A program made the translations under genes and the position numbers. A DNA stretch of 64,000 nt from Vitis vinifera (Eukaryota > Streptophyta > Magnoliopsida > Vitales > Vitaceae): assembly GCF_030704535.1 (NCBI RefSeq), contig NC_081813.1:2380001-2444000 (forward strand). The letters are read 5' to 3'. The stretch's first letter is position 1; every line of letters begins with the position of its first letter. Under the pieces are notes generated by a model. The model saw only the letters and a list, made by a program, of their open reading frames with translations, searched no databases and was not told the DNA's origin. Positions 11,828 through 60,935 of this stretch are shown piece by piece.

Positions 11828-13010
11828 AACCCTAAGGATTTTACTACATAGCTCAACTCAAACCCGACACAAATAATAATTGTGTAAACAATATAAACCT
11901 AAATACTATATAATTATTAAATAGGTAATATATCGTGTAATCCATTTAATAATGAGGTTCTCCTATTTAATTATAGGGAGAATTATATTTTGGGGGTAGA
12001 TGGGCCCCCAAATTAACAAAAGGTCCATGTAACTCTTCAAATTGAGACCAAGACCCAATGAAAGTATGGAAATTGAGTTGAAGAATATCATCCTTCAGTA
12101 TTTCCAAAAATGCCCTTTGTTGATTTTGAGAAAAAAAATTAATATTTTTAAAAAATACTTTATTTAATTTAATATTTAAAAAAAATACTTTTATGTAATT
12201 TAATATTTTTTAAAATACTTTTATTTAATTTAATATTTTTAAAAAATAAATTTATTTAATTTAATATTTAAAAAAAATATTTAATTTAATATTTTTTTAA
12301 ATACTTTAATTTAATTTAATATTTTTGAAAAAAAATTAATTTAATATTTTTGAAAAAAATTTATTTAATTTAGTATTTTTGAAAAAAAAATTATTAAAAA
12401 AAATTATTTAACTTAATTTTATAAAATATTTTATATGTGTTTTTAAAGGGTATATTTGTCCATTACTATTTCATATCCTTCAACTCAATTTGAAGAGTTA
12501 TATGAACCTTTTATTAATTTAGGGGTCCATTTACCCCCAAAAGATAATTCTCCCTTAATTATATGTCTGTCATATCAAAACCTAAGGATTCTATTATATA
12601 ACTTAACTCAAATCGGACACAAATAATAATTGTGTAAAAAACATAAACCTAAATACTATTCATGTAACATATTTAATAATCAAGTCCTCCTATTTAATAA
12701 TTAGGTTAACTCTTGTATATGTCTATATGATTAATATTTTGACTAAACATGTTTATAAATTAATTGATCTATTTATTTAAAAAAAAAATACGTCAATGGT
12801 TTAAAAATACAATTGGGTTAATAACATGATTATTAAATGGGTCAATATGGATCAAATTCGTGTCGGGCAAATTGACATAAAAATGACTTTTTTTATTAAA
12901 CAATTTATATAGAGTGATGGAAATTTGATTCAAATCCATTTGTACCGGATCCAAACTTGTGAAAAACGTGTTGGGTTCATGTCATGTTTGTGAATCGTAT
13001 CAAAATTTGT
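11828..13010. repeat. Dispersed grape-type repeat, copy split by a MITE
   Basis: 'aaccctaaggattttactac' and its second version 'aacctaaggattctattata' flank a MITE insertion. The downstream part (to about 13010, 'gggttcatgtcatgtttgtg') is the same family as sequences at 30567-30860, 30947-31291, 44650-45035 and 61335-61800. Typical words are gacacRaataataattgtgt, ttaataatYaaRtYctcc and gggttaataacatgattatt. No coding capacity. Confidence 0.6.
11976..12554. mobile_element. MULE-type MITE with long TIRs and 9-bp target duplication
   Basis: The left end gggagaattatattttgggg and the right end, reverse-complemented, gggagaattatcttttgggg begin inverted repeats of roughly 75-90 bp that match through 'ctcttcaaattgag'. 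Both sides are flanked by the identical 9-mer ttaattata (11967-11975 and 12555-12563), the target-site length of Mutator-like elements. The interior is a run of degenerate ~30-bp AT repeats ('tttaatttaatatttttaaa') with no coding capacity. Confidence 0.88.
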
Positions 13011-25562: not shown

Positions 25563-28183
25563 TAATATTTAAGATTTGCAAGACTAAATCCTATTAAATC
25601 AAGTAATAAAATTCTAACCTATTCTATGATTGAATTAAATTATTCAATATTCTATATGAATTTGTTACCTAGGTCAAACGACTCAAACCTCCTCCTGCCC
25701 AGGCTGCCCTAACCCCCTCTGTTTCTTCTTCTTCCCCAGCAACACCACGCCTCTATCTTCTTCTTCTTCCCCAAAACAGCAACAGCCCTAAGCCCTTACA
25801 CAGCAACACCACGAAGGCCCTCTTCTTCTTCTTCCCCAACTCAGCAGTCAGCAACACCACGAAGATGTTGATGCACTGATGCAACCCTCTGTCTTCTTCC
25901 CCAAACCACGAAGACGCAGCCTCTCGTGGCACGATTTGCTACCTTCCACCAAGCACCGCACCAAAGATGAGGATTATAAACTCCGACAATGGTGGATTTC
26001 TTCAACTGAGCCTCTTTTTAAAGGCTTTTGAAAAATTGAAAGGGTCACAGACTCACAGGTTTGTCAAATCTTCACGGGTTTTTTTTTTTATTTTCATAGG
26101 TTTCGTAGGTTTTCTTTTACAGAGGAATCTCTGCTTTCTCTGAAAAATCAAGATTTGTTGTGGGGCTTTTTGCAGAGAATCCATTGAATTTTTTCCTCGA
26201 GTTGCCCGAGTTAACTCGGAATATCGGTCGACTCATCCGAGTCCAACCGATTCAGGCCGAGTCTAGGTATCTGGTATCGGACTCGTCGCGGTCCACTTCG
26301 AGGCGGATACGACTCGGCCGATTTTTTGAACGCTGATCCAACCCACCATTTCTCGCTCATTATTCCATCACCACCTTTTCTCTCTCTACTCTGCCTTTTA
26401 TACCCATGTCCCATGCTAACCACATGCATGCTTTCTTATTCATTCTATCACCACTTCGTTTGTTCATACCCATCACTGTACTCTCTCTCGGATCTCCATT
26501 CACATACTTAGTTTGTCATCTTTTTTTTCAGATTTACATCATTTCACACCCACATCTACACATGCACTCATCATCTTGCATTCTCTCTCTCTACACCACG
26601 CTCTCTTTGAATACCGCCTACCCACTAATCCACCCCACACTACATCGTGCCCATCATTTGCAGTTCACCTCTCACTATACCCACGGGCATGGGACTCATT
26701 CATACCCTTGTCACGCTACCATCATACCCATAACCCTATACCCATTATACCCCCATGCATATCCGTTTCTCACCACCTTCTCTCTCTCGATATCCCATCT
26801 TTTCTAAGCATCCATGGTCAATCCGCGCATCACTCCCAGTATCTTAATCTCTTTCATGTTATCATGCTGCGGCAGTTGGAGAGGGATTCTCCTTCAAGTG
26901 ATTTCTTTGTCACAGGTGCTTTCAAGGAGATACAATTGACTGAAGGAAAATTGACCCAAGGAGAAGCTCCGCGGCATCACTATGCAAACAGGTCACCAGT
27001 TTGTTCTTAACTCCTGTCATCATTTACAGTAGGGGGTTTCGAGGTCACCTACCTTCCCATAGGGTTTGGTGAGATTGTTGATATCAATCTAGTGTGGTTC
27101 GTGATTTGGCGAGATATACAAGCTGAAGGATAAAAAGTAGCAGCCCCTATTCACCGAATGGATTTACGGGTTGAGCAGAATATAGAAATCCATGCTCAAA
27201 TGTCATCAGAAGCAGTCCCGTCAAGCATTTTTGACTGTTTCTGGCCAACTGCAAGTTGAGACTTATGCATGTGCTATTGGCAGTGTTTATACCTTTGGGC
27301 CATGTGGCATTCTTGGTTTTCTTCTTATTTGTTTCCTTTGAAAATGATTTCTCAAATCCCCTTTTGTAAATATTTTTCCCAAATCCTGATTTTCAAATAA
27401 TCCAAATTTTCCCATTTTCCATCCTTAGAATTTTTGGATACCGAAATCCCATTTTCAATAAAATTTGGTTGCCATTTTCCTTCCGGCAAGCCACTTTTGC
27501 ATTTTCTTTGCTTTTAAAATGTTTTAAAAATAAGTAAGAATTAAATTCCGTAATTCCAAGTGATGGAATTTATGGAATTGATTCATGCAAAATAAATGGG
27601 CTTTGGTGGGGGCCTTACATATGAGATTTCAAGATTGATTAACTAATTGTTTGCTTCATTGGCCACATGTGATTGATTTACTCTATTCCTTGATATGCTC
27701 TTAATTATATATGTTTATTGTTCACTAACTATGTTTCATGATAGTGCATTCGTGATCGCCGCCCAGGTACGCATCTATTCATATTTTGCTCATTCTTTAT
27801 ACATGTTTTGCTTCTCATATTGTGCATGATCGATTTGAGTATTCATCGATTTTCTTGTTGACTGCCACGTCAGCTTCATTCTATTAGTAGAGACTCGACA
27901 TTAGGGACTTAGAGGGGTGCTACGGTATTTACCGTACCTTTCCGATAAGTAACCTGACCCTCGAACCCGATCCGGTTTTTCACAGACCGCATTTTTCAAA
28001 ATAAGGAGTCACACTTAGGGTTTTTCTTTCTTATTTTGTTTACCCTTTAAAAATAAAACAAAAATAAGTGGCGACTCCAAGTCATTTTCTTAATCAATAA
28101 AAATCAATTTTTCAAATAAAATAAAAATCGAGCTCGTCATTCGAGTGGGAAACGCATCGAGCAATCGAAATGCGGGGTCCACA

Positions 28184-30566: not shown

Positions 30567-31291
30567 ATGAAAATTGTGACTCATTTAACACATTTAATAA
30601 TTATGTTCTCCTTTTTAATAATCAAATTAAGTTTTACATATATTCATATGATTAAATGAACTAATTTATTAAAAAATAAATTTAAAACGAGTTAAATACG
30701 GGTTAAATAGTTTAAAGATATAATTAGGTTAATAACAAGATTATTAAATGGGTTAATTTGGGTTAAATTTGTATTATACAGATGGACGAAAAAATTATAT
30801 GTTAACACGAATTTGATCTAAACTCATTTATACTCAATCTAACCCTTCTAATCCCACAACGTATTAGAATTTATCTATATATTTTTTTTAATGGGCCTTG
30901 AGCCATTTCCTCTCATGGTCTATGGATTGGGACGGTAAAATTTAATACGATTTTCGTGGGATTAGAGGGATTAGATTGAGTATAAATGAGTTTAGATCAA
31001 ATTCGTGTTGATATATAATTTTTTCGTCATTTTGTATAATGGGAATTTAACCCGAATTAACTCATTTACTAATCTTGTTATTAACCTAATTATATACCTT
31101 TAAACTATTTAACTTGTATTTGACTCATTTTAAATTTATTTTCAAATAAATTAGTTCATTTAATCATAAAAATGTTTGGTTTAGACATTAATCATAAACA
31201 TATATAAAACTTAATCTAATTATTAAAAAGGAGAACCTAATTATTAAATGGGTTAAATGAGGAATCTTCTATAGTTTTTGTCACGTCACAA
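30567..31291. repeat. Large inverted repeat made of two opposite copies of the dispersed repeat
   Basis: Left arm about 30567-30860 and right arm about 30947-31291 are reverse complements of each other over about 290 bp, with scattered differences and a ~86-bp spacer. Example words: 'tataattaggttaataacaa' on the left, 'tgttattaacctaattatat' on the right. Outer ends are gaaaattgtga and tcacaattttc. The right arm is also the left end of block A. Confidence 0.8.
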
Positions 31292-33612: not shown

Positions 33613-36600
33613 TGTGGACCTCGCATTTCGGCTCATGCGTTTCCCACTCGATGGCGAGCTCGATTTTTCATTTGAAAAATTGATTTTTATTGATTAAGAA
33701 AAATTGACTTGGAGTCGCCACTTATTTTTGTTTTATTTTTAAAAGGGTAAACAAAATAAGAAAGAAAAACCCTAAGTACGACTCCTGGTTTTGGAAAAGG
33801 TGATCTACTGAAAATCAGATCGGGCTCGGGGGTCAGGTTACTTATCGAGAATGTACGGTGAGGACCATAACACCCCTCTAAGTCCCTAAAGTCGGGTCTC
33901 TACTAATAAAATGAAGTTGACGTGGCAATTTACGAGTAAATCAATGAATATCCTGGATGATCATGCACACACAATAGTCAAGACATGCATAGACAACGAT
34001 TAGAGGGAAAATGGGTACATACCTGGGCAATGAGTCACCATGCGCTATCAATAGAGAGGGTTAGTGCACAATTTAAGAATAATCGCATGTATGTCAGAGA
34101 GTAGGGTAAATCAATCACGTATGATAATCAAAGCAAGCGATCTATCAATCAGTCATAAAGTCACACATGTTGGACCCTCACCAAAGCCCGTTTATTTCAC
34201 ATGAATTAATATCACAGATTCTATTATTCCAGGATTATGAAAAACTCATTCATGCTTATTGAAAGTAAGAGGAGCAGAAGATTGTTTGAAAACCAGAATG
34301 GAATTAAAACTACTTGAGAGAAAATCGGATTTTTGAAATTTATTTGAAAATTTGGAATCCCAGAGGTTATTTGAAAATTGGAATTTTAGAGTTTATTTGG
34401 AGATCCGACTTTTAGAAACTGAATGTGAGAACGAGAATTTTAGAAATTGAATTTGAACGAGGTTGGGAATTTGAAAAATGATTTGAGAGTTCGGGATTTA
34501 AAATAAGTGGATAAGCGGATGAGCGAATAAGTAAATGAATGTGATAGTGACGATGGTGAAATAATAAATATCAGGTAAATAATTACGCATGATGGAACTT
34601 TTAGAGGTTGGAGACTAAACTTATAGATTGAAAGTTTAAGAAATTGTTTAAAGATGAGATCTTCAATATATGAACAAGTGAACAAATAAATGGATGTGAC
34701 AACATTAATAACGAAAATAATTACTAAATAGTTGATTGTGAACAGTGGAGTTTTTGATATTGGAAATTAAATTTGGACGTTGAGTTTTTGAAGAATTGGA
34801 CTTTAAGGGATGAGATTTTTAAAGGAGGATAAATAAACACATGAAGAATAATAATAATAATTAACAAAACTTAATATTTAAACAAATGAAATAGTGAAAA
34901 TTTTGAGATTGAAAATTTAATTAGGACGTTAGATTTTTAATGAATTGGGCTTTAGGAAATGAAACTTTTAAAGGAGGATAAATAAACACATGAGGAATAA
35001 TAATAATGGTTAACAAAGATAATATTTAAACAAATGAAATTGAATAGTGGAAATTTTGAGATTAAAATTTAATTAGGACATTAGATTTTTTTTATGAATT
35101 GGGCTTTAGGAAATGAAATTTTTAAAGGAGGATAAATAAATACATGAGAAACAATAATGACAATTAACAAACATAATATTTAAACAATGAAATTGGATAA
35201 TGGAAATTTTCAGATTGAAATTTAATTAGGAAATTGGATTCTTGAAGAATTGGGCTTTAAGGAATGAGATTTTTTTAAAGAGGATAGAAAATACATAAGA
35301 AATAATAATAATAATTAACAAACAAATTTGAATAGTGGAAATTTTGGGATTGAGAATTTAATTAGGACATTTAATTTTTGAAGATTTGAACTTTAAGGAT
35401 CGAGATTTTTTTCTAAAAGAAATAAATAAATAAATATGGAATAGTAATGATAATTAACAAAAACGATATTTAAGTGAATGAAAGTGAATAGTGGAATTTT
35501 TCAAATAAATAAAAATTAAATTCGGAAGTCGGGATTTTGAAAAATTGTTTAAAGATAGAGATTTTAAAATACATAAATGAATAAATAATAATAATAACAA
35601 TGAAAATGATAATGGTTAAATTCATAAATTGAAAATTATATTCGAAAATTAGAGTTTTGAAGCATTACTTAAAGACGGGAGTTTTAAAGACTGAATTTAA
35701 AAAAACCAAAATAAAAATAAAAATAAATAAATCTTGATATCAAAAGATAGAGGATGGATTAAAATAAAATAAGATGTAGTCTTTGTGGTACACTGGGAAG
35801 CAAGAGCCCCAGCTAGGAGGCCAATACCCAGAAACAATATCATAGTGATGGTAAGGGTCCAAATAAAAATAAAAACTCTCTATCTACACGCCATAGAAAG
35901 AAAGAAAAGGCTTCAACGTCATCCACTAAAGCCCTCACCGGTTTCAGACCCCTGCTGTCTCCACCTAGGTATCACCCAAAACCGGGCCACCTCATTAACA
36001 TGACTTCTCAAATTTTTGAGAACTGCCTTCTACACCGAGGATGAGGTCCCTACCACCTTCAAAGAGCTGATAGAAAGACAATGCAACCACACGAGGCTTG
36101 ACTGTCTTTAGACTTTCAGAAGCTCCCAAGGAAATCCCAATTATCACCGAATGAACTACAATCCATGACTCCAAAACCTGAACCATAATGCGATGGCGGG
36201 CGAGCTCCGGTGATCTCGGTACACCGGTGGCAAAGCTGGACCCACCGCGGGTGACCATGTGCGGGATTTCATGCGCTGGGGAAGGGAATGAAATAAACGG
36301 GAAAGGAGTCATGGGGTATGGTTGAGAAGATGTTGAGTTGAATGAGACGAATGTGGTAGGGGGATCCTATTCCGTGAGCATGGAATATGAGAACCAGTGG
36401 GTATGAGGGCTAAGGTGGCCATGCATGGGGGGGAATACGTGTCGAGCAATGAGAGAGAACGAGGGAAGCGGGCTGGTATTCTTGCTCATGGATGGCGTGG
36501 GTGATGATAGATGGTTGGATAAATACATAATGAAATCAGGTGGGATAAATGGTTAATGGTGAGTGCAAAATATGGGCATGCATGGTGACAGGTTTGCATG

Positions 36601-37880
36601 AGAATTCAGGATGGTGGGGAAAATGGATATTTGATGTGGTGAAGAAAGAGAATGGTGGTAAAACAAAAAGAGGTGAGGGAAAACGGGTTCGGTGGTAGCA
36701 GGTAACATGGTGGATTAGATGGATGGTGATATAGGAAATAAATGGTGAATGGTGGGTGTGGGTAGCATGAAAGACGAGAGATGGGTATGGTGGTGTTTGA
36801 AATGCGTGGGGATGAGATGTGGGCATAGGAATGACGGTCAGGTCTGCATGAGAATAGATGGGTATTAATTTGTGGGAGAATGGGTATGAAATAGGTGTGA
36901 AGGGCAGCCATGGGCACGTTGGGTATAATGGGTAGATACTGCCAGTTTTGGATGATGAACTCTTTGCATGCAAGCTTCTCTGTTTACAGATATTAAAAGA
37001 AGAACAAAGATCATAAAAACAGAGCATACATCTCGTCAACGTCCCTGCTTCATCTGAAAACATGGGTGGCTCAATCGGTTTTATCAAATACAAGAAACAG
37101 CCTTTGTGTCTAGGTCTTCATTTACAGAAAGGATCACAAATATAGGAGCCAAAGCAACAAAAAAACGAGGGAAGGATAATCAAGGAATAAAGTAGAAAAA
37201 CATGAGTGTATCAAGCCTCATGTCGGGTGGTATCCATGGGCAGATACAGGTGGGAAGATCTCAAGCCAGAGCCACAAAATACGCGAGAAACAGATCTCGT
37301 TAACTCCAAACTAAACCATAAGGATAACGGCAAAATCAACAACAACAAACAAGTGATCCAGAAAAATCAATGAAATTCAACATGAAATCCAACCCAGACT
37401 GATGAGCAATGCAAAGCAAACCAAAATGAGAAAAGGACGAGGAGAATATGAATCAAAGGGAGCAAGAGACTCACCCCAAACTCACCTGCAGCTGCCTCCT
37501 TTCTCTGTTATCTCCTTCTCTAGTAAGTTCTCCTTTAAGATCAATGGAACCAGCCAGCTCCCTTCTCTGTGACCCCTCTAATGGCCTCCTCCCTTTCAGA
37601 TCTCAGACTCTCCTCTCGTATCTGCTTTTTCTCTCCTGTTTCTATCTTCCACAACAAGCCACTACCAGCTCCACTATTCCTCCATCAGCCAGTATGGCTT
37701 CCCTCCTCTCTGACGTGGCCGGCCATCACGTCTTTGCCGTGTCTGTGAGGCTGCTCTCCTTGCAGAAAGGGGTCCCCCCGTTTGCCTAGGGTGCTGCCCG
37801 CTGCTGGTGATGAGGAGGCCCCCTTCCAATGTCATCAAAAAAACTAAAAGGTCCCCCGGCTCCTAAAAGAGGGGTCTACA
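33613..37880 (+). mobile_element. Long solo-LTR-like element, second copy
   Basis: Starts TGTGGACCTCGCATTTCGG and ends GGGGTCTACA, flanked by the 5-bp duplication gatgt (33608-33612 and 37881-37885). The paralogous block B has the uninterrupted site 'catgttcttctttt' near 48198, confirming the boundaries. 4,268 bp, with no gag/pol and no internal second LTR: a solo LTR of a long-LTR (probably Gypsy) family, or a coding-less derivative. Its GC-rich right half contains long open frames on both strands rich in His, Pro and Ser, without recognisable domains. Inserted after the block duplication, so younger than it. Confidence 0.8.
34590..35690 (+). repeat. ~147-bp tandem repeats inside the LTR element
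   Basis: Units share 'gaattgggctttaRgaaatg', 'tttttaaaggaggataaata', 'aataataataattaacaaa' and 'ttgagattgaaatttaatta'. The 'ggctttaRg' word recurs at about 34799, 34946, 35101, 35248 and 35388. Five clear units plus degraded flanking ones. Confidence 0.8.
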
Positions 37881-38507
37881 GATGTTCTTCTTTTTGCCTT
37901 TTTTTTTTTTTTCATATTTGATATCAAATTCATAACAATTTGGTCAAAATCCAAAAGTTATCTTAATAAAAACAAGCCCTCTATTTAACGAAAACAATCT
38001 TATAACAAATTATTAGCTTGTTTGCTCGTGTGATTTAAAAACAATTTTTTAGTCATTATTTTCTGAAAATAATTTTTAAAATAAAGTAAAATAGATAACA
38101 ATTTTTAGAAAATAAATGAGAATTATTTTTACCCGTTTTTTAAAATAAAAGAAAAATATAAATCAATTTAATCATGTTTTCTAAAACTTGTTTTTCAAAT
38201 TTAAAAAATAAGTTTTAGAAAACAAAAAGCCTTGTATACCCACGGATTAAAAAAAACAAATTTTTATTTTTAAATTTATTGGGATGATATCAGCAGAACT
38301 TTTAAAAACCCTAATTAAGAATGGAATGAAGTCCACCCCAAAAAGATTAGACAAGTCACGAGGCTCCCAACAAACATTTGCCTTGGTTTTGCCATCGGCA
38401 TCCCCACCACAAGCCTCTCTTTCCCTTCACTAACTTTGGGTCTCTTCCTCAGTTATAAAACAGCCCCATGTACAGGAGAAAGCATAAGCACTGACTCCAC
38501 CAAAACC

Positions 38508-38880
38508 ATATGGAGAAAACCAAAACCATTTGTTTAATTAGAACAAACCAGCCTAGGGTTTTCCAACTTAGACTCCTTCAATTTTTATTGCTATTTTTGC
38601 TTGTGGGTCTTAGAGTTATGATTTTTAGTATGAATATAATTCGATATTTTGGAGTTCAGAGCGTAGTCCCTGCACCTCAGTCCCATTTTCAACAAATTCC
38701 AAAGATCGCCTTCATGTTCATGACAAGGGAGCCATTGCCATTGGCACCTCTATGGGAGAGATTCTTCAAGGGTGACAAGGGGCTATATTCAATCTATGTT
38801 CATTCTTTGTCATCTTATGATTCTGATTTTCCAACTTCATCGATTTTCTATAAGACAAATTCCTAGCCAGGTTGTGACAA
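38508..38880 (+). pseudogene. GT14 glycosyltransferase exon-1 pseudogene, copy A
   Basis: Near copy of exon 1 of the intact gene at 49376. It keeps the membrane anchor (VFQLRLLQFLLLFLLVG), PKIAFMFMT, LWERFFKGDKGLYSIYVHS and YDSDFPTSS. It lacks about 155 bp of exon 1 between SHFQ and IPKIAF, and has lost two pieces of the 5' leader, so the open frame starts in former leader sequence (MEKTKTICLIRTNQ). It ends in a stop just where the parent reaches its splice donor, and no exon 2 follows. The promoter with 'cagttataaaacagcccc' is retained at 38450-38467, so it might be transcribed. A non-functional enzyme fragment. Confidence 0.85.
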
Positions 38881-39113
38881 AGGGCTATATTCAATCTATC
38901 ACAAACTAGACAAAATCTAGTTTGTGATAAGAAACTTGGGATTAGTATGATTGCACATGTTGGCTAGGAATTTGTCTCTTGTAGAAAACGATGAAGCTGG
39001 AAAATCAGCATCGTAAGATGGCAGAGAATGAATATAGATTAAATATAGCCCCTTGTGGCCCTTGAAGATCTCTCCCATAGAGGTGTCAATGGCAATGACC
39101 CATTTGTCATGAA

Positions 39114-42100
39114 CAAAGTTTTTAAAGGCGAAAGCGTAAGGCGAGACGTTTTTGTGTTCCTGAGGCGAGGCGTAAGCCTCGAGGCGTTGAGGCGTAAGCT
39201 TTTTAAGCCTCACATTATATAATTAATTAATATTTTTAAATATATAAAATAAAATAGCATAAATAGAAACATGAAAACAATTCATTAGAATCATAATAAA
39301 AAAAGCATACTAGTACCCTACTTTCACAAAAAAACCATAACAAAGTCATAAAATAGACTCTAGATTCAACTATATTAATAGTTTCAAACTTTAACAAAAA
39401 ACCATAACTAAGTCATGAAATAGAAAATAGAGTCAACCATAATAATAGTTCTAAACTTTTACAAAAAATCCATAACTAAGTCATAAAATAACAACTAGAG
39501 TCAATTGTTTCAACTTAAATCCTCATCCTCAAGGTCATCATCATCCTCATCCAATGTATCAATAGTAGGAAAATGTCCACTATCATGTATCCCCATTTCA
39601 TGTAAATCTTCATCTTCATCAATTGGTGTCAAATTCAACTCCTTCTCTTTGCCTTTGCCTCCACTTGTACCTAGCATAAAGAATTAATTAAGTGTAAATA
39701 TTATAAGTTTTTTTATTAAATTTAATCAAATTTATGACTTCAATTTTTGAGTACTTACTTGGTACTTCATTATATTTCCTTTTGTAGGAATGTGAAGAAA
39801 CCATGTGATCCGATGATGTTTCAGTCTCTTGGGAGTTGGATGACACAGCTCTAATGGCATCAACACTGAATAACTCATCATCTTGAAGCCAACAAAGATC
39901 AAGGGGGAGGAGGGGATCTTCTTTCTCCGCAATCCATTCATCATCCGAATCAATCTCCTCTACCAAAATCGGATCAACATTTTGTTTCCTTTGTAGACTT
40001 CGCTCTCTCAATCTAGTGTTGTATCTTACATACACTAGAGCATTCAACCTTTGATGTTCAAGTCTATTTCTTTTTTTTGTATGGATCTACAAATAATAAA
40101 AGTATCAAATTTATGTGTTAAAATGAAATAAGGTTCTCTAACATTGACATAGAAATATATGTATAAAAATTTACAAAAATAGAAGTATTACCGACTCAAA
40201 TGTGCTCCAATTTCTTTCACATCCCGAAGCACTACAAGTAAGGCTAAGGACTCGAATAGCAAACTTTTGCAACTCCGGTGTTGAACCCCCAAAACGCATC
40301 CACCAACTTGTAGGACTTCTTAATGTTCGAGAATCAATTGCAATACGACTCCCAAATTCACCCATTGCTTGGTCATATGAGTCCAACTGAATGTCAGCTT
40401 TTAAACGTTCTTGATAATCCAACATCCTATCCATGCATTCAAATAATCCCTTCCTCACCTCATCAGCATTAGAGAACTTATCTCCATACCGCAATTGAGG
40501 ATTAAGATAATAACCCGCTGCATGTAAAGGTCGATGAAGTTGCGGAGTCCATCTTGCGTCAATTTTTCTCCAAATTGGGCCATATTTTCTCTCCACACCC
40601 CGACAATTAAATGCAATCTTCTCCTTAGCTGAATCCATCAACTCATAAATATAACCCATGGCTGGTCTTTCCTCTGAATCAACCTCTCTCAAGACACTAA
40701 CTAATGGAACAGTGGTCTTTATGCAAAAAGCAACATGAGGCCAAAAATTTGGATCAAACAACACTGTACTTCGAGTTTTCACACCTTCTACCTTTTTAGC
40801 CCATGTGCTTGAACACCATTTTTCTGATGAGAACATTGCTATAAGAGCTTGCTTTTGCTTATAAAGACTTTGGAGAGTAAGAAATGCAGTAGCAAATCGT
40901 GTAATTGCTGGACGAAGAAGTTCATGATTTTTTGTAAATGTTCTCATCAAGCTAAGAACCCAAGTATGCCCATATATGAGCTTCACTACTTGCCTAGCTC
41001 AAGATAGTGTAGTAGCATGAACATTTAGCTTTCCAATATCCTCCAACATCAAATCAATACAATGAGCAGCACAAGGAGTCCACCACAATTTTCTCCTTTT
41101 TTCCATAAGCCTCATTCCAGCATTCACATAATTAGAGGCATTATCAGTGATGACTTGCACAACATTCTCCTCTCCAATTTCTTCAACCACCTCATCAAGA
41201 TATTTGAACATCAATTCCCCATTTTTTATTGTATCAAAAGCATCAATTGATTTCATAAACCAAGTGCCAGCAGGACTATTCACCAAAAAATTGATAAGAC
41301 ACCTACTTTTTCCATCTGTCCAACCATCTGACATAATTGAACATCCATATTGTTTCCAAGCTTTTTTGTGATCTTCCATAATGATACTTAGGTCATTTAC
41401 CTCTTCTTTAAGAATCCATGTCCTCAATTCATGCATAGATGGAGGCTTAAACCCGGACCCAAAATTTGCAACAGCATCTATCATAGGAAACCAATAAGGA
41501 TCATTCACAGTGTTGAATGGGAGACCTTTTGAATACATGAACCTACCAATTTTTCTACACACTTCCTTCTTTTCTTCTTGCTTCCACTTTGAATTCAAAG
41601 TAGTTTGTCTAGGTTGTGAAGTGGTAAATTTATCCATGGGTCCCCTAGGAATAGGTTCACCACTCCCACTTACACTCCCACTCCCACTCCCACTCCCTAG
41701 TGTCCCTATTGTTTTAGACAAGGCACTCTCATGCATTGAAGTTGGACCCATACCAATTTCTTGGAGCAATTCATTTCTTTTTGTTTTTTGATCCTTAAAA
41801 TTGGCCAATGCCTCTTTGCATTCCAATCTAGCATCTTCACTAACCTTGGTGCATGGTTTCATACCATGATGAGTTCCGGCTAAGTGATGCTTGAGTCTAT
41901 TCACCCCTCCCGTGCATCTTTGATTGCAAAATTTACATCTTAAATATTGCTCCCCGGCAACTTCAAGAACATAATTCCACACAAAATCTTTTCTTGAATT
42001 TTTCGAATCGAAGGAACTCATTCTAAAAAAAAAAAAACACCAATAATAATATTCAAATTTCTATATAATAATATAATTGACTTAAAAATAATAACAAGAC

Positions 42101-43224
42101 ATAATTGAAAGGAATTTAAAAATGAAATTCAAAATTTAATTGGTTTTAATTTTAAAAAACCAATATTTGTTTTAGAAGAATTTTAAAATTATACACATAA
42201 AAGGGAAGAGATATTTTTATAATCTAAATTCCATTTAATAAGGAAATGAATGTTATATTTCATTTAAAAAAATAAGAAATAAAAAATATACTTATAAGAG
42301 TGAAGACAAAATATAAGAGTGAATACCTTGGAAAAATAGAAAAAAAGAAATAAAAAATAAATTTATAATTATTAAATTAAGTGTATATTTTAAACTAATT
42401 TTATTTATATAAAAAAATAAATATTTCGTGAACCAAACACACCATCAAGGAAAGAAAGGTTTTTCACCTCTGAAATATGATTATATTTTTGTAATTAAAA
42501 AAAAAGAAAAAAAAAAGGTGATTGCCGATTGGTAAGGTGGGTGGGAACTGAGAAGAGGAGGGCGATGCACCTCTGTTTCAACAGAGGAGTCACAGACGGC
42601 TATTGAGGGTGTGCGTACTACGCACCATTTTATTTTTTAAATTGGATGGCATTTGATTAAAAAAAAAAAATTGATGAACGAGAACGAACCCCGACTGCCA
42701 AGAGAGAGCCAGCCTCTCTGTGTCAAGTCGACTGCCATGGAAGATGAAGAAAACCATGGCAGATGGAGAACAAGATGAAACCGAGAGGGGGAAGCATCGA
42801 AGACACGAAGAAAGGGAGATCGCGACATACCTGGAGATGAACGAGAAGGATCGCCGCCGGAGAAGATGCTCTGCAATTGGTCGTCGCCGGAGAAGATGCT
42901 CTGGATTGGTCGCCGCCGCTTCAGGTAGGGTTTCCTTTTGGAGTTTTTCTCCCAATTTCTGTTTGCCTTCAATCGGGACTCGGGTTTTGCTTTAGGGATC
43001 AGTTAGGGCTTTTTTTTAAAAAATTTCTTCATGGCCACAACGCGTGCGCCTTCTTCTCAAGGCGTAAAAGGCGCAATCAAGGCGCGCCTCAGACACGCCT
43101 CGGTTGAAAAGGCGTACGCCTTTCTCGCATTACGTTTTATTATTTACGCGTCAGGGCGTTTTTGCCTCGCCTCGCTTCAAGGCGCGCTTCAAGGCGCGCC
43201 TGAGATACGCCTTTGAAAACCTTG
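39114..43224 (-). mobile_element. hAT DNA transposon, nearly complete, inserted in GT14 pseudogene copy B
   Basis: Ends CAAAGTTTTTAAAGGCG and CGCCTTTGAAAACCTTG form TIRs; the 8-bp duplication gtcatgaa lies at 39106-39113 and 43225-43232. Both subterminal regions are dense in 'aggcg' repeats (39120-39200 and 43050-43215), probable transposase binding sites. The 4,111-bp element carries one transposase gene on the minus strand and a GC-rich 5' region (42590-43020) that includes a 30-bp duplication (42851-42909). The two clean ends and intact duplication suggest a fairly young insertion. Confidence 0.93.
39510..42021 (-). pseudogene. hAT transposase, full length with one in-frame stop
   Basis: Minus-strand exons join in frame: 42021-40192, 40086-39759 and 39670-39510, about 772 codons. 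Domains: BED finger (LRCKFCNQRCTGGVNRLKHH, residues ~29-48), a Ser/Gly linker (GSGSGSGSVSGSG), a DUF659-type core with SDGWTDGKSR and a conserved VITDNASNYVNAG, and the C-terminal hAT dimerisation region (VLSLTCSASGCERNWSTFES). An acidic tail (DEDDDDLEDEDL) closes the frame. One TGA lies between LNVHATTLS and ARQVVKLIYG (near 40999-41001), in the position of a likely former CGA. No other damage was seen, so the gene is one substitution from a full frame. Splice sites fit: TCG|GTAATA, tttgtag|ATCC, CCAA|GTAAGT and gctag|GTAC. Confidence 0.88.
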
Positions 43225-43655
43225 GTCATGAACATGAAGGCGATCTTCGAAATTTTTTGAAAATGGGATTGAGGTACAGGGACTACGCTCTGAACTCCAA
43301 AATATCGAATCATATTCATACTAAAAATCATAACTCCAAGACCCACAAGCAAAAATAGCAATAAAAATCGAAGGAGTCCAAGTTGGAAAACCCTAGGTTG
43401 GTTTGTTCTACTTATAGTTTCAAACTCCTTGCCTTCCTCCCATGACATTACCCTTGTGTGGATCTCAACGACAATTTCCTATAACACCCTTTTTCCAATC
43501 CAAACCTGCCCTAAATGTAAAAAGCTGAACTTTCTTTGCTCTAATCTCAAAACCAGCCTGAAATTGTAGCTTACAATGACAATGGAGAAATGGTTTTGAC
43601 TTTCTCCATATGGGTATTTGATCCACAATAGTTTTCACAAGAGACAGAGCAATTT

Positions 43656-44649
43656 AAAAAATATATAATAATAATAATAACTTAATTTATTATATATATA
43701 TATATATATGTTATTAAATAAAAAAAGTTAAAATGTCTAGCTTTTTAAAAGTAAATCCTAGTAACTATAGTTGATCTATTGATTTTTTATTTTTTTACTT
43801 CTTAATACCTAATAGAAATATATTATTAAAAAAAAAAATCAACTTAATGTTTAACATTATTAAACATTATTTAGTCTTAAGTTTTATTTAAAAGTAAATA
43901 AAAAAATAAACATCACCTTAATATCATAATTTAAAATTAAAAATAACTTTAAAATAGTTATTTTATTTTTAATTTCAAATCTTTTTTACCTTATTTGTCC
44001 ACACTAACAAAAGTAAATTGATCACATCCATGATTTATTTTTTTATAATAAATATTTTATAGTTATTTTATATATCCATCTATAATACTTTAAATATGAA
44101 TGTTCTATAAATAAATTTATTACTTAAAATTAATAAAAATAAATATAAGTTGAAATTAATGAGGGTAATTGTGTCAATTTGATGATTTAAAATAAGTTTT
44201 AAGTTGATTTTATTAAGTAATTTTAATAATTAAAGTAAAAAATAAATAATAAGTTTTACATTAAAATAATTTAACTTAAAGTTAATTTAAGTTATTAAAA
44301 AAATAAATATTAAGTTTTATTAAACATCCAATTAGCTTTGATATTTATCTTGGAACACTCTCCTTACAAATATGAAAGGGTTTAGCTCCTCTTACATATA
44401 TGAAAGGTGTAGCTGTCATTCATGAAGAATTTGACCATGAGAAGGACCAGCAAGGAATCTAAAGTTGAGGAGAAATTAAAAGAGAAGGATAAATTGAAGA
44501 AAACAAAAGAACCATTTGGAGGAAGGAATCAAATTGCAGCTGCTTCATTCGGTGTTATTTGTTTTTTGGCTGAATAGAGAAAACCAAAATATTTGACTTT
44601 TTTTTATTCAGTTAAAAGTAAATAATTGATATTGTCCAATGAACATGAC
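43656..44649. other. AT-rich intergenic region
   Basis: No gene. Contains a (TA)n microsatellite at about 43689-43709 and AT-rich sequence with 'acttaagtt' words like those in 32740-33150 and 47360-47760. Confidence 0.55.
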
Positions 44650-45903
44650 ACAAAACCGAACATGATTTTCGTGGGGTTAAAGGTTAGATTAAGTATAAAT
44701 GAGTTTAGTTCAAATTCGTCTTGACATGTATAATTCGTTTAATAAAATAAGTAATTTTTTTATCAATCTGTATAATAGGAATCTAATCCAAATTAACTCA
44801 TTTAATAATATTGTTATTAACCTAATTATATCTTTAAATTATTTAACCCATATTTGACTCATTTTAAATTTATTTTCAAATAAATTAGTTCATTTAATCA
44901 TAAAAATGTTTGGTTGAGATATTAATCATATGAACATATATAAAACTTAATCTAGTTATTAAAAATAAAACATAATTATTAAACGGGATAAATGAGAAAT
45001 CTACAATAGTTTTTGTCACGTCACAATTTTCATATCAACCATACATCGAAAAAAAAAATTTAATTCATACTAAAGAAATCATTTTAAAAAATGGTTTTCA
45101 CAATTCCATAAAATTGAATTTATATTAAAGATATTTTTTGAAAATATACCTTCCACAATTTTCACGTGGGCCAAATCAGGGTGGGGTTTCTCGGCTATAC
45201 TAAGAGGCATATTTGCAATAAACATGGCCACCCCAAAATCGATGGCTTCGTGGGCAAACCATAGTGGGCACTGGGCATCCCTCAATGCATTAATGGGCCT
45301 TTAATGGGCCATGAGCCCATTTCCATTCAAGGGCCATAGGGCATAGGTTGGTGATTGGGCCCTGGTCCAGGCCCAATCAGAATCAATGAAGCCCACAACC
45401 ACCACACTCACTAATGGTGTGTGCAGTATTGACAGTCATTATAGCACACCGTTAACAGTTTTTTCATTTCTGATCCGTACAACACTGCATTTACTTGAAT
45501 TTAAAAACATTTAATTGCTTTGTGGATTTATTTTTCTGATAAGGCAAGGCCGGCTTTGGTGTATTATGGACTATCAATACTTCTGAAAGCTCTTGGCTTC
45601 ATCAATTAATGCCTTCATCAAATATGAAAATAAATTTTGAAGAAAAAAATACAATAAATTTTAAAAATATTTATTAAAATATGACAATTATTATATTACT
45701 ATTATTATTATTTTAAAAAATGGGGCCTAGCTTAGGGGTTGTTTGGATGGGTTTTTGATGCAAAATCATATATAAATGGACAATACGGATTTTTTTTTTT
45801 TTTTTTTAATGGTGAGAAAGTGCTCTGCCTGTCACAATTAATTCTAAAATGAACTCTTCCTTTAAGACATTGTATGAGAACTTTTATAAATGAACCGTAT
45901 CAG

Positions 45904-47210: not shown

Positions 47211-48698
47211 ATTTAGAAAAAAGTTAAATGTTTTTATTTTTTTTATTCAGTCAAAAAATTTAAGAAATTAATAATAAGTAAATAAAAAATAAAAATAAAA
47301 ACAAATAATTTAAAATTTAAAAACAAAATGATTTTAGTAAAAAGTTTAAAAAACAAACATCATTGTGTTAAGGTAAAACTTAATATTTATTAATTAATGA
47401 GTTAAGTTGACTTTAAGTTAAATTATACTTAAATTATTGACTTAAAATTTATTTTAAATCATTAAATTAACATATTTATTTTCATAAATTATAATTAGGG
47501 TAACAAAATGTCAAATAACAATGAAAGTTGTGAAATAGTAAAAGAAATCGTTAACATAATTAAGATAAATAAAAATAAAACAGTAAAATAAAGATATGAG
47601 CTTAAAATAAGTTAATTATTTTTATTTATTATTTTTTTATTTTTTGCTTTTAAGTATGTTATTGAGTTATTTTATTAAATATACTTAATTTACTTAATAA
47701 CTTAAATTAAATTATTAATTAACTTTAAGTTATTAAGTTGTTTTATGAAATACCCACTTAGATATGAACTTAATTGTATAATCATTACATATGTACTTAA
47801 AAAACACAATAAAATTGTAATTTTCAAATATTACGAATTATATATGGAAGCGATAACATGAAATTTGGATTTGAGTAGTTCAAAATGTTTAAATTTTGGT
47901 GAGAATAATTTTGTTTTAATTTTATTTCTAATTTAGTAAATAATTAAAACACAATAAAAATTAAGAAATGAAATAAATTTCTATTCTCATTTCCTTATTC
48001 TAATATCTCCTTTAAAATCTTATAAAATCTTATAAGATTCTTTTTTCCTTTTTTTTTTCAACTTCCATGTGTTATTAACATGGAAATATGCATGCCAAAT
48101 GTAACAATAAATTGAAGAAAGATCATAATTATTTTAGATTACGACAAATTATCATTGAGATTGAAATTATTTTCCTTTTATAGATCTGTAATTTTGTCAT
48201 GTTCTTCTTTTTTGCCATAAGAAATTATGAATATGTATACTGTGATTTAAAAATAGTTCTTTGTTTTTTTGTTTTCTAAAAATAATTTTTAAAGACAAAG
48301 TGAAATACAGATTAATTTTTAAAGAATAAATATGACTTGTTTTTAGCTGTTTTTAAAAATATAAGAAAAACATAATACAGTTTCATTGTGTTTTCTAAAA
48401 CTTGTTTTTTAAAACTGCTTTTAAATTAAAAAGATAAAAACCGATACTTAAGAATAAGTTTTAGAAAACATGATCAATGGATTAAAAAATAAATTTTTAT
48501 TTTTTATTTTTAAATTTATTGGGATAATAGCAGAACTTTTAAAAACCCTAATTAAGAATGGAATGAAGTCCACCTCCACCGGAGACACCAAAAAGAATAG
48601 ACAAGACTCCAAACAAACATTTGCCTTGGTTTTGCCATCACCCCACCATAAGCTTCTCTCTCTCTTCAGTCTTCATTGCCTTTGGGTCTCTTCCTCAG

Positions 48699-48706
48699 TT
48701 ATAAAA
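48699..48706 (+). promoter_or_regulatory. TATA box of the GT14 gene
   Basis: TTATAAAA in 'cctcagttataaaacagccc', conserved in pseudogene copy A at about 38451. The ATG follows about 670 bp downstream, so the leader is long and may contain an intron. Confidence 0.55.
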
Positions 48707-49375
48707 CAGCCCCATCTACTGTGGAAAGAATAAAGGAGGAGGAGAGTAAAGCACCTGAAAACAGCACTGACTCCACCACTCATCAAACACTGTATACAAA
48801 TTCAGTGAAATCAGGCGGAATTCAAGATACAAAGCAAAAAGTGTGAGAGCAATTACTCTAGTTCTGTGGAGGCCTTTGATCCTTCTTCTACATTCATCGT
48901 AATGCCATTACACTGCATTTTGGTAATCAACTAAAATCCCACTTTTCTCTGTTTTTTTTTTTTCCTTTTTCTTTTGGTATCTTTCATCATTTGGTTATTT
49001 CTTTTCTTTCTCTTGTACCAGAAATCTTGATTTGGCTGAAGGTTTTGCTGTTTTGGGGTTGTGCCTTGGGCAGAACCGTGTGTTTGGGCAATACCCATGT
49101 TGTGAGAACTGACCCACTTCACCCATTCGATGTTTAAATCGCTCTGTCTCTTGTGAAAACTCTTGCGGATCAAATACCCATATGGAGAAAACCAAAACCA
49201 TTTCTCCATTCTCATTGTAAGCTACAATTTCAGGCTGGTTTTGAGATTAGAGCAAAGAAAGTTCAGTTTTTTTTTACATTTAGTGCAGGTTTGGATTGGA
49301 AAAAGGGTGTTATCGGATTTGATTTCTGCATAAAGACTATACTCAAGCAGAATTTGATAGGAAATAGTCGTTAAG

Positions 49376-52300
49376 ATGCACACAAGGGTAATGTCATGGG
49401 AGGAAGGCAAGGAGTTTGAAACTATAAGTAGAACAAACCAACCTAAGGTTTTCCAACTTAGACTCCTTCAATTTTTATTGCTATTTTTGCTTGTGGGTCT
49501 TGGAGTTATGATCTTTAGTATGAATATGATTCGATATTTTGGAGTTGAGAGCGTAGTCCCTGTAGCTCGGTCCCATTTTCAACCTTGCTTTGAAGAGGCA
49601 AATACTTTAGAAACTTGGATTAGGCCTCCATCCAAACTGTTACACAGCATGAATGACAGTGAGCTGTTTTGGCGAGCTTCCTTTGTTCCCGGAATAAAGA
49701 ACTACCCATTTAGGAGAATTCCGAAGATCGCCTTCATGTTCATGACAAAGGGGCCATTGCCACTGTCACCTCTATGGGAGAGATTCTTCAAGGGCCACAA
49801 GGGACTATATTCAATCTATGTTCATTCTCTGCCATCTTATGATGCTGATTTTCCAGCTTCATCGGTTTTCTACAAGAGACAAATTCCTAGCCAGGTATCT
49901 TTTTCTTTCCTCTTCTTTGCTATAAAGTTGCATATTCAACTAACTTTGCTTTTGAAGCATGCAAGTTCAATTTCGTATGGTTTTACACGTTTAATTTTCT
50001 AAAATAACTGGTAATATGTGTTGCCGGCTCGCCTTTCATCTTGATAGAATGCCGATTAGTCAATGTGCTCAATGTTCCTTTTATATAGCCAGATCTCACT
50101 ATTGTTGTGTGATTTAGTGAACAAAGTAATCTTGTCTGCAGTCGCTTTGCCTATCTACTCTACGTAACCCTGAATCTTCTTTCTTAAATGATGTGAATCA
50201 ATTCCCCACATTACTGCAAACAATTTTTCTTGCTTTCTGACTGATTGTTTGGTCAAAGATAATGTCCTTTTCTTTTTTAATCGTCATGGTTGCATCAATT
50301 TCTTTGAAAAGAGAAGTGGAAATTTTCAGTTATCATAAGAGCCTGAACATTTCATTTTGACATAAACTTCAGAAACTTAGTACATGGCTAGAACCTAAGT
50401 ATGCATCTAGTGTGGAGGCCTATGTACTTCTACCTTCAGGAAGTTTGTAGTTCTTTTGCAACATCGTAAAGTAATATCACTTGCATATACCCAAAAAAAG
50501 AATGATATTGTGCTTTCAAATCTTAGTTTCTCTGATGTGTTGAAAGGTATTGGTAGACTTGGGCAGAGCAAGTTGGCTTCCTGACTGAACACAGTCATAG
50601 CTATGTGTTTATGCTAGTTTGTGATAAGAAAATTGGGATTAGTATGATTGTACTTGTTGGGATATTTGACTATTGATACCCTGATGTTTTCACCTAGCCC
50701 TGTGAATTTGGCAATAATGAATAGTTTCTGGATTTTTATCATGTAAGGATGGTGAGAATGGTGCAATATAGGGACTGTTTTCATTTGTTACTTACTTTAC
50801 AAGTATGAGCATTGAAAATTTTGAAAACTTCACATATTGAGCAAGTTATCTTGGAGCCATGAAACCCTTGTGGCTACAATAGTAAGTATTATCTAGGGTT
50901 GTTCTAAGCATCCTATATTGCTTCTTACTACTCATTCTTTATACATTAGTTGATATATGTGATGGCCATCATTCCTAATAGTTCTCTACATTCCACAAGT
51001 GTGTAGATCAAATTAAACCATTAGGCTGGGAGCACATTCATCGACAAGTACCTTCCCTGCCTTCACTGTTTATGTCCTACACAAAGTAGGATCTATCCTT
51101 TTGAAGAGAATACTGCTCTGTTATCAGGGAAGGATGACTTTAATAATCACACTCGTTATAGTCTCTTTTCGTGTAAATGAAACCTGACCACCGATTCCTT
51201 TCCAAGGGTGGAGCAAGATTTGTGAAGCCAACCTCATAATTGAGAGAAGGATTTTTTTGGATTGCTTCTTAATATACCACATGCTTGTATTTGGCCATAA
51301 TTTCTCTTTCAATCCTGCTCACGCATGCATTTTGATTGATTCCAATGGTGTGGACTCAGGCTAGGATATGTGCTAGAATCTGGCAGTTAATTATGATCTG
51401 TGGGTGTCCCGCTGGATTTAACACCAAAAAAACATACACTTAATGACGAATGCACGGCTGGCGTTTGGTCCGTGCAGCTATCATAATTCTTGAACATCAC
51501 ACATTGGGTCACTTTTCTTTTTACTGTTACTGTTCTCTTGTTCTTTTGTTTTTTGTTTGCTTGTATGATGTTAATCTCTTCCTTCCTTTTCTAAAGTTAA
51601 AGGAGTTCTGGATTTTTATGCGAAATTTTCATATGATATGCATTGACATATATAGACTACCCCTTGAATGTGAATGCACAGACACAAAACATTTCCGGGA
51701 AAAGGAATCTCTTTCTTTAGCAGGGATTTTATAATCCTAAATAGCCTACACTTTTGGGAGTGAAAGTGGAAAGATATTCAATAATTGTAGATATGTACCA
51801 CTATTGATCCACCTTTTTTGGTCCATGCAATAATGCTCTCGTATTATTCAGTAAATGATGTGTCCAAAGGATGCGGGTTATTCAATGAATGATATTAATT
51901 GGCTTCCAGTGTCTCAACACCCCCTTAAGCGTATTCTCATTTGACATGTTCTCTAGACTCTATGGCTGGAACAGTTCTTACTCTTGTGCTTGTCTCATTT
52001 GCAGGTGGTGGAGTGGGGAATGATGAGCATGTGTGATGCTGAGAGGAGACTACTAGCTAATGCATTGCTTGATATTGACAATGAATGGTTCATCCTCTTG
52101 TCAGAGTCTTGCATTCCTCTCCACAACTTCAGCATTGTCTATCGCTACCTATCAAGATCCCGATACAGCTTTATTGGTGCATTCGACGAAGATAGCCCTT
52201 TTGGGAGGGGACGCTATAACCCAAACCTAGCACCTCAAGTTAACCTCACCGAATGGCGTAAAGGATCCCAATGGTTTGAAGTTAATCGGAAACTTGCAAT

Positions 52301-52643
52301 TGACATAGTTGGAGACAACACTTTCTACCCAAGATTTAAGGAGTTTTGCAGACCATCATGTTACGTGGATGAACACTACTTCCAAACAATGCTGACCATC
52401 CTGGCTCCACACCTATTAGCAAACAGGACCACCACTTGGGTGGACTGGTCGAGGGGTGGTGCACACCCTGCCACATTCGGCCAGGCTGATATCACAAAGG
52501 AATTCTTCAAGAAAATCATTGAAGGTGGCACCTGCATTTACAATAACCAGCCAACTTCACTTTGCTTCCTTTTTGCAAGAAAGTTTGCTCCAAGTGCATT
52601 GGAACCACTCTTAGACTTAGCATCTGAAGTTTTTGGTTATTAA
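49376..52643 (+). CDS. Core-2/I-branching beta-1,6-N-acetylglucosaminyltransferase-like protein (GT14, DUF266)
   Basis: Two coding exons, 49376-49894 and 52005-52643, joined across a 2,110-bp intron (CAG|gtatct, tttgcag|GTGG), 385 aa. Type II Golgi architecture: short cytosolic N-terminus, one membrane anchor (about residues 25-48, FQLRLLQFLLLFLLVGLG), stem, then the GT14 catalytic domain. Family motifs: PKIAFMFMTKGPLPL, LWERFFKGHKGLYSIYVHS, CDAERRLLANALLDI, NEWFILLSESCIPLHNF, YVDEHYFQTM and TTWVDWSRGGAHP. Plant members are thought to glycosylate wall or arabinogalactan components; the acceptor is not predictable. Start could also be the Met at 49391 (MSWEEGKEFET), supported by pseudogene B, where the first ATG is absent. 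The nearby pseudogenes derive from this locus. Confidence 0.93.
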
Positions 52644-54010
52644 CAAATTGATGAGCAAACCGATTACATTTTTTCTCTGAAAAGTGGCTGTTGGAACATG
52701 CGAGTTATGTCATGAAGCAATCTTGTTTCAGGTGAACGCCTCTGAAATCTTTTTCCCTACCACTTTTATTCCTTGATAACATGTATTACCATTAGGTTTA
52801 GATCTTAGACAAGCTCCCAGGGCATAATAATATTCTATATGTTTACATCTTACACAAGGTTATGGGGCTTAATAATATTCTCTTTGATTGTATTTTGTAC
52901 TGTACCTTATGAATGAATATCTACATTTATGTTTGTTGATGGTTCATCTTACATCTTGTCTTTCCTGCAAACCCTTGAAGCATTTGGTGCATGGAGTAGG
53001 TACTTTGTTGTTCACATTGGGAGGCTATTGGATGCAGACTTGTGTTGGTCTATTTAAAATGGGTGGAAGTACACAAATGATAAAACATTGATTTGAAATG
53101 CTCTTGACCTAGGTTGGAATTATGAATGTATAAAAAATGAATGTGTAGGTTCGGGTTTTGACCATCTCATCTAAAACCAATTGATGTTCGGTGAAGGTAA
53201 GCCAAACCTTTTATGACATTCAACATTATACTCCGTGGGTTTGTTCTAAGTGTCATCATTTATGAAAGTAGAGATGAAAATGTTTAAAAAATAGTTATTC
53301 AGCATATTTTTCTCAAACAATTTTACAATGTTTTTTATAATAAAAATCTAATTGCGAACATGTAATTTTATTAAACTATTTTTTAAAAATAATTTCTTAT
53401 CTATTATGGTTTTTTTTTAATTATTTTTCGTATGAACAATTATAAAAGTTGTTTTACAATTTAAAATGTTATCAATCTATTTTTCAATAAATGTTTTCAA
53501 ATATTTTTTAAAAATAACCTTCATATATATAATATTTTTTAATCTTCATATTTATACAAAATATTTTTTGAAAGGGCCCTAAAAAATAAATAAAAATATA
53601 ATATTTTTAGAAGAAATTGCAAAAAGTAATAACCAAAAAACACTTTTATTATTCTTATTTTTGAAAACAAAACAATTGTACTAGGTTCCTAATTATTGCG
53701 TTAGGATAGCCCAGTTTAATCCCAGGTTGTAATCCTATCATTGATGATACTTTGAATTTATCGAATGTTGGTTGTTACGGAATGATCAACAATTTGAGAA
53801 TTGGGTTTCTATGGAAAATGTAAGCGCTTTCACAAAGATTCTTTGGTTTAAAAAAAAAAAAAAAAAGTCACTCGTCATGGATTTTGAGGGTTTTTTTTTT
53901 CTCAAAATATGAAACTAATTTTAAAATTTTAATTTTTAAAAAGATAACTTCAATTGTTGTTATAAAAAGTAATTTTTTTAAAAATATTTATTTTCCTCAC
54001 AAATACAAAA
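52644..54010. other. Intergenic region between the GT14 and RNA methyltransferase genes
   Basis: GT14 3' UTR, then AT-rich sequence. A poly-A tract at 53850-53866. No gene recognised. Confidence 0.6.
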
Positions 54011-60480: not shown

Positions 60481-60935
60481 CCTGTTCGAAAGTAATTTTA
60501 GGAATTGCTTTTAAAATTTTTAATACTTAAAATTTTTAAAACTTAAAATTTTTTATGATTTAAGTATTAAAAAGGTTAAAAATATTTTCTAGAATCAAGT
60601 TTATTAAGACATGATTTCTTGGAACAACAACCATTTGTCTTTTAGGTTATATTTGGTTTTCGGGAAAATTTGAAAGAAATGAAATAAAAAGGAAAAGTGG
60701 AAAGAAGTAAAAGACAAGGAAAATAAAAATTAAATTTAAAATTAATAAATTATTTTTATATGTATCTTCAAATTTATTTTATTTATTCTCTCATGTATTA
60801 TATAAATATTAAATAATTTAAAAATGCATAATTTTCTAATAAAATTTTAATTTTATTTAATTTTCTTTTCTATTTTGGGAAAATTATTTAGCATTTTGTT
60901 TCCTTCCCTTCCTTGGCAATTCACCTGGGAATTCA
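60481..60935. mobile_element. Two adjacent MITE-like sequences
   Basis: 60481-60610 starts 'cctgttcgaaagtaatttta' and ends 'ttttctagaatcaagttta', like the foldback family at 30438 and 45904. 60642-60935 starts 'ggttatatttggttttcggg' and is like the MITE at 46884-47210. Ends are approximate. Confidence 0.45.

Follow-up and report, generated by a model that had tools for sequence, protein, structure and literature searches.

The copies of the Arabidopsis PAI inverted repeat are reportedly nearly identical, and related copies are said to have been found experimentally to be silenced via DNA methylation. In soybean, the candidate I allele GmIRCHS is described as a promoter-bearing 5′ DnaJ part with a tail-to-tail 1,087-bp pseudoCHS3 repeat, 78 bp lying between the copies; the same account gives double-stranded RNA (dsRNA) as detected and deletions as relieving silencing (PMC13051633). 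For rice, two pairs of inverted pseudogenes to which small RNAs map have been described, one of them with a predicted 185-nucleotide (nt) duplex and a 1,283-nt loop (PMC2708354), and computational evidence has been cited for an origin of MIR163 with a duplicated promoter (PMC1790633). Here, we describe a related arrangement in a 64,000-nt stretch of Vitis vinifera DNA (assembly GCF_030704535.1, contig NC_081813.1, positions 2,380,001 to 2,444,000 of the forward strand; "the window," whose numbering is used throughout). Two pseudogenes, copy A on the plus strand and copy B on the minus strand, lie tail to tail upstream of the intact gene from which they derive ("the parent").

Copies A and B are a real inverted pair of pseudogenes of the parent's exon 1. 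They are adjacent and opposed, come from one parent, and lack both exon 2 and coding constraint, with the caveat that a 118-amino-acid open frame persists in copy A. Comparison with the parent gave no exon-2 match in either copy. The features of the locus, with the basis for each in brackets, are as follows.

38002 to 38487, plus strand: copy A upstream region, a duplicate of the parent promoter at 48217-48733 (alignment).
38506 to 38872, plus strand: copy A exon-1 pseudogene, the sense arm, lacking a net 132 bp and, separately, another ~220 bp (alignment).
38706 to 39131, plus strand: hairpin predicted for a transcript of the plus strand, with 187 pairs flanking the centre (folding).
38873 to 38960, no strand: centre of the palindrome, an 88-bp spacer (alignment).
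38961 to 39113, minus strand: proximal part of copy B, the antisense arm of the present hairpin (94% to parent 49893-49737).
39114 to 43224, coding on the minus strand: hAT DNA transposon of 4,111 bp inside copy B (ends, 8-bp target duplication, Pfam).
43233 to 43658, minus strand: distal part of copy B, carrying the 5′ leader and the remainder of exon 1, again less the net 132 bp (alignment).
49376 to 52643, plus strand: intact parent gene, PF02485 Branch (joined frame, Pfam, whole-genome protein search).

The two exons of the parent (49376-49894 and 52005-52643) join as a single open frame of 385 amino acids, and both match the Pfam Branch domain (PF02485; E = 7.2e-15 and 5.3e-61). Plant GT14 proteins carry this domain, and we call the parent GT14-type. 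Searched against the entire genome (21 contigs, 495.6 Mb in total), the parent protein gave 27 matches, the best of which beyond the locus lies on contig 4, with 61% and 70% identity for the two exons. When the DNA of the leader end and exon 1 was used as the query, seven matches were obtained: the query itself, five fragments belonging to A or B, and the contig-4 paralogue, which is 68% identical and is the only further relative found by this exon-1 search.

Copy A runs from 38002 in the promoter to 38872 at the end of exon 1; it matches the parent at 149 of 159 bases (94%) over 38535-38693 and at 91%, with one gap, over 38695-38872. Copy B, on the minus strand, runs from 43658 down to 43233 and then from 39113 down to 38961, and it aligns with the parent in three pieces (43257-43658, 85% with gaps counted; 43220-43254; and 38961-39115). 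Common to both copies is a net deletion of 132 bp of exon 1 (parent ~49583-49716), equivalent to 44 codons and in frame, as derived from offsets of 10890 and 11022 in copy A and from coordinate sums of 92839 and 92971 in copy B. Copy A is missing a further ~220 bp around the coding start (parent 49204-49424), whereas copy B has lost ~45 bp within the same interval and kept the remainder. Because these private losses differ, A and B are not mirror images. The open frame of copy A (38510-38866) begins at an ATG whose equivalent sits in the 5′ leader of the parent, and it stays open because 132 is a multiple of three.

An earlier note on this DNA had proposed a tail-to-tail pseudogene pair beside its intact parent, and the alignment, orientation, and position of the copies bear this out. 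It had also derived both copies from one broken copy, which the identical deletion and the shared derived changes (two substitutions, with one more unclear) confirm. The deletion it described is indeed common to A and B, although its size is 132 bp net rather than ~155 bp. The ~100 bp that it placed between the copies is close to the 88 bp that separate the exon parts (38872 to 38961), but this spacer itself pairs in the predicted fold, leaving a 5-nt loop. The note saw copy B but missed the transposon that splits it, the patched centre, and the coding-constraint result.

Copy A also retains the sequence upstream of the parent gene. Over the core promoter (38281-38487), 167 of 183 aligned bases are identical to those of the parent, and over the distal part 218 of 260 are (gaps not counted in either case). 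The same TATAAA occurs at 38454 in copy A and at 48700 in the parent, in agreement with the earlier note's statement that the TATA region of the parent was kept. We regard the upstream region of copy A as a putative promoter, retained at the sequence level. A retrocopy origin was ruled out, since the promoter was duplicated together with the exon and the gaps in copy A, judged by eye, are unlike spliced introns.

The centre of the palindrome is assembled from small pieces. Positions 38874-38899 are a 26-nt near-repeat of the exon of copy A at 38772-38797, the 47 nt at 38917-38963 match the parent intron at 50614-50660, and a 10-nt inverted repeat surrounds the palindrome midpoint. Patchworks of exon, inverted, and intron pieces are familiar from template-switching repair, and we infer that the inversion probably arose by template switching during replication or repair.

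The element that splits copy B is flanked on both sides by a perfect 8-bp target duplication (GTCATGAA) and ends in the terminal repeats CAAAGTTTTTAAAGGCG and CAAGGTTTTCAAAGGCG. On its minus strand, Pfam places zf-BED and DUF659 in one frame and Dimer_Tnp_hAT in another. The 8-bp duplication, the terminal inverted repeats, and the zf-BED and dimerisation domains assign the element to the hAT superfamily. Its coding part recurs in at least 39 other places in the genome, 38 of them at 94 to 99% identity and one at 89%. Among the matches listed, identity to the nearest copies reaches 99% for the coding part (1,851 bp) and 98% for the initial 290 bp at the left end. The family looks recently active; in the copy at 39114-43224, the coding part is broken into two frames.

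The order of events was assessed from 329 sites aligned among A, B, and the parent (7 gap columns excluded). A and B differ from each other at 25 of these sites (7.6%). Changes were private to A at 15 sites and to B at 9, A and B agreed against the parent at 7, and all three differed at 1. When the 7 sites at which A equals B were polarised with the contig-4 paralogue, the derived state lay with A and B at 2 of them and with the parent at 4, and 1 was ambiguous, although single polarisations are weak with an outgroup that is just 68% identical (its state is shared by 3 of the 15 changes private to A and by 2 of the 9 private to B). Since the branch shared by A and B is short, with two or three shared derived changes, the inversion is suggested to have followed closely after the duplication. 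Given that the arms are 7.6% apart and that the nearest hAT copies are 98 to 99% identical, the inverted pair is several times older than the hAT insertion. With a widely used rate of 7e-9 per site per year, the split between the arms would date back at least ~5 million years, and the age of the hAT insertion would be at most ~0.7 to 1.4 million years; these are rough figures, and both would be older at a lower rate, grapevine being described as slowly evolving (PMC11876125).

Neither copy showed coding constraint when its substitution classes were compared with expectation. In this test, which considers the coding level only and involves small numbers, the parent was taken as ancestral and transitions were weighted fourfold, so that 68% nonsynonymous, 29% synonymous, and 3% stop changes are expected without constraint. 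We counted 10 nonsynonymous, 5 synonymous, and 0 stop changes in copy A and 7, 2, and 0, respectively, plus frame breaks, in copy B. A possible C-to-T excess, which would mark methylation, was considered (A and B together have 14 C/G-to-T/A transitions and 6 reverse ones) but was not used, being a hand count without context or control.

A plus-strand transcript crossing the centre is predicted to form a strong hairpin. For the RNA of 38690-39140, the minimum free energy was -276.8 kcal/mol, compared with a mean of -107.3 for shuffled sequences (z = -28.5; 0 of 100 shuffles as good). The predicted stem has 187 pairs, 12 of them G-U, with a longest unbroken helix of 31 pairs, and its outermost 9 pairs are formed with the first bases of the transposon. 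The earlier note's estimate of folding over at least ~120 bp thus understated the length. In the empty site, with the hAT element removed, the predicted stem would comprise 384 pairs. The usual MIRNA foldback is shorter than the stem here. The long-stem transcript of a GmIRCHS-type hairpin RNA (hpRNA) locus is therefore present in prediction, for a hypothetical transcript.

To describe what such a hairpin could match, 21-mers of copy B were scored as antisense to the parent region 48200-52700, leader matches included. Among the 131 proximal 21-mers, 11 were perfectly antisense to the parent, 40 had one mismatch, and 36 had two; for the 406 distal 21-mers, the corresponding counts were 131, 134, and 72 (82, 72, and 24 against exon 1 alone). 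In the comparison with the one paralogue used, that on contig 4 (exon-1 locus), no 21-mer had fewer than three mismatches, and exactly three were found for 7 of the 131 proximal and 3 of the 406 distal 21-mers. Because the 21-mers match the parent and none comes within two mismatches of this paralogue, any silencing would favour the parent. The hAT insertion moved most of the perfect matches outside the compact stem, with pairing across the >4-kb loop still conceivable.

Fold-backs in general are no rarity here, whereas a well-matched one built from a gene exon is. As a chance control, we sampled contigs 1 to 19 (20 to 37 Mb each) at a fixed position, taking one 10-kb stretch from every contig (190 kb in total). 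None of the 19 contained a fold-back with an arm of at least 80 bp, a spacer of at most 1 kb, and at least 80% identity; three weaker ones were present at 67.6, 67.2, and 74.7%. The same script gave the pair 200-bp arms at 80.7% identity (gaps counted). Within the window, there are four palindromes with arms of at least 50 bp and spacers of at most 1 kb, and the pair has the highest identity (the others have 77.1, 68.8, and 73.3%), although two of the other three have longer arms. These others are a 682-bp palindrome at 30580-31261 (77%), a multi-copy fold-back repeat with a relative at 44664-44996, and weak palindromes of 600 bp at 11965-12564 (69%) and 101 bp at 60495-60595 (73%). In addition, opposed arms of ~620 bp that are 77% alike lie 5.4 kb apart (27563-28183 and 33613-34224). 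No Rfam match was found in the window at the gathering threshold, though a new family would be missing from Rfam.

To the left of the pair, a multi-copy repeat (37000-37884; 95% to two contig-18 copies) ends ~118 bp from copy A, and to the right of copy B lies another (43836-44335), mostly 73 to 80% identical to places elsewhere. The flanking repeats gave no sign of a single element enclosing the pair, no dedicated test of capture having been made. Elsewhere, the window holds an Snf7-domain frame (7217-7825), a minus-strand Peptidase_M20 fragment (18128-18577), and a reverse transcriptase (RVT_2) fragment (878-1543).

We consider the locus to be, on balance, a decaying fold-back pair of exon-1 pseudogenes with a latent capacity to form a hairpin, acting mainly on its own locus or not at all. 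The sequence shows that the 5′ part of the parent, together with its promoter, was duplicated ~10 kb upstream and lost 132 bp. It is found there as two opposed copies that meet at small exon- and intron-matching patches, the inversion itself being a probable product of template switching; each arm bears its private losses, and the hAT element later entered copy B. If the promoter of copy A is active, its transcript would fold back and could be diced to small interfering RNAs (siRNAs). These would act chiefly on the locus itself, through methylation, or nowhere, and would affect the parent weakly or not at all; this mode of action, mainly in cis or none, is what we infer from the whole.

Several points weigh against this reading. 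The retained core promoter, together with the 87 of 131 proximal 21-mers within two mismatches antisense to the parent, would permit silencing in trans, and missing coding constraint carries no information on RNA function. The published description of hpRNA transgenes with perfect repeats reports self-methylation that includes the promoter, but mismatches in the sense arm are reported there to prevent it (PMC9263138), and the arms here are mismatched at 25 of 329 sites. With arms 7.6% apart, it is hard to say whether the locus would methylate itself or escape.

The strongest competitor, though in our judgment an unlikely one, is an active trans-silencer. The promoter of copy A would then drive a hairpin RNA that Dicer-like enzymes process to 21- to 22-nt siRNAs, and those from arm B would target the parent for cleavage or methylation, much as siRNA silencing of chalcone synthase is the model proposed for GmIRCHS (PMC13051633). 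Promoter, sense arm, and antisense arm stand in the correct order, the layout is that of GmIRCHS, and beyond the 11 perfect proximal 21-mers a further 76 come within two mismatches of the parent, none being so close to the contig-4 paralogue. Yet the transposon displaced the arm with most of the perfect matches from the compact stem, and the coding-constraint test, the one made, gave no sign of selection. The account of the rice pair with the 185-nt duplex, which reports no small RNAs detected from its parent gene (PMC2708354), likewise counsels caution. A more specific version strikes us as distinctly improbable: a natural RNA interference locus that targets one GT14-type gene from a duplicate of the same gene's promoter and so forms a self-limiting feedback, in which a recent, possibly still polymorphic hAT insertion cut the predicted stem from 384 to 187 pairs and accessions lacking the insertion would show stronger silencing.

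Slightly less credible still is an early microRNA gene arising by inverted duplication of its target. The published route agrees with the structure seen here, including the promoter duplication at MIR163 (PMC1790633), and a miRNA gene is described that overlaps a neighbouring pair of inverted pseudogenes derived from a single parent (PMC3237417). A 187-pair stem with few interruptions, however, would suit a mixture of siRNAs better than one miRNA; the window also gave no Rfam match at the gathering threshold, though a new family would give none in any case. We give little credence to expression of copy A as a truncated 118-amino-acid membrane-anchor protein: its frame does follow that of the parent across the in-frame deletion, but its 10 nonsynonymous and 5 synonymous changes are as expected without constraint, and the chance of zero stops in 15 random changes is ~60% (0.967^15, at 3.3% stop). 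Palindromes are difficult to assemble, but a falsely joined inverted copy is barely tenable, given the 25 differences between the arms over 329 sites, their private deletions, and the presence in just one of them of a transposon with a perfect 8-bp target duplication.

A single stretch holds the parent, a promoter-bearing inverted copy, a patched centre, and a later transposon, a readable first step toward plant hairpin-RNA loci as these are thought to arise. Should small RNAs arise from it, the locus would be a natural test of the effect of a transposon on a young silencing locus; should none arise, it is an ordinary pseudogene pair. Limited literature searches found no title naming this locus, which does not prove that nothing is in print.

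Like the PAI locus of Arabidopsis, the pair is an inverted gene repeat; the PAI repeat reportedly affects related copies and consists of nearly identical ones, whereas the arms here differ at 25 of 329 sites. As in GmIRCHS, a tail-to-tail pseudogene repeat whose halves are a short distance apart (78 bp in soybean, 88 bp in grapevine) lies 3′ of a promoter and near an intact gene of the family; unlike the description of that locus, with its 1,087-bp arms and unrelated DnaJ promoter, the arms here are ~200 bp long, the promoter is the gene's own, and a transposon occupies one arm (PMC13051633). The described rice pairs likewise consist of two adjacent inverted pseudogenes of one parent, and the 185-nt duplex is near the size of the stem here, albeit with a 1,283-nt loop in place of 5 nt (PMC2708354). 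GmIRCHS is known by its dsRNA and the rice pair by mapped small RNAs, whereas the grapevine pair has been read from the DNA only. As in the Arabidopsis and rice loci described as en route to MIRNA genes, the fold-back arms resemble a protein-coding gene, and the promoter is duplicated as at MIR163 (PMC1790633, PMC3237417). The anatomy of the pair thus resembles that of GmIRCHS and of the proposed inverted-duplication stage of young plant MIRNA loci.

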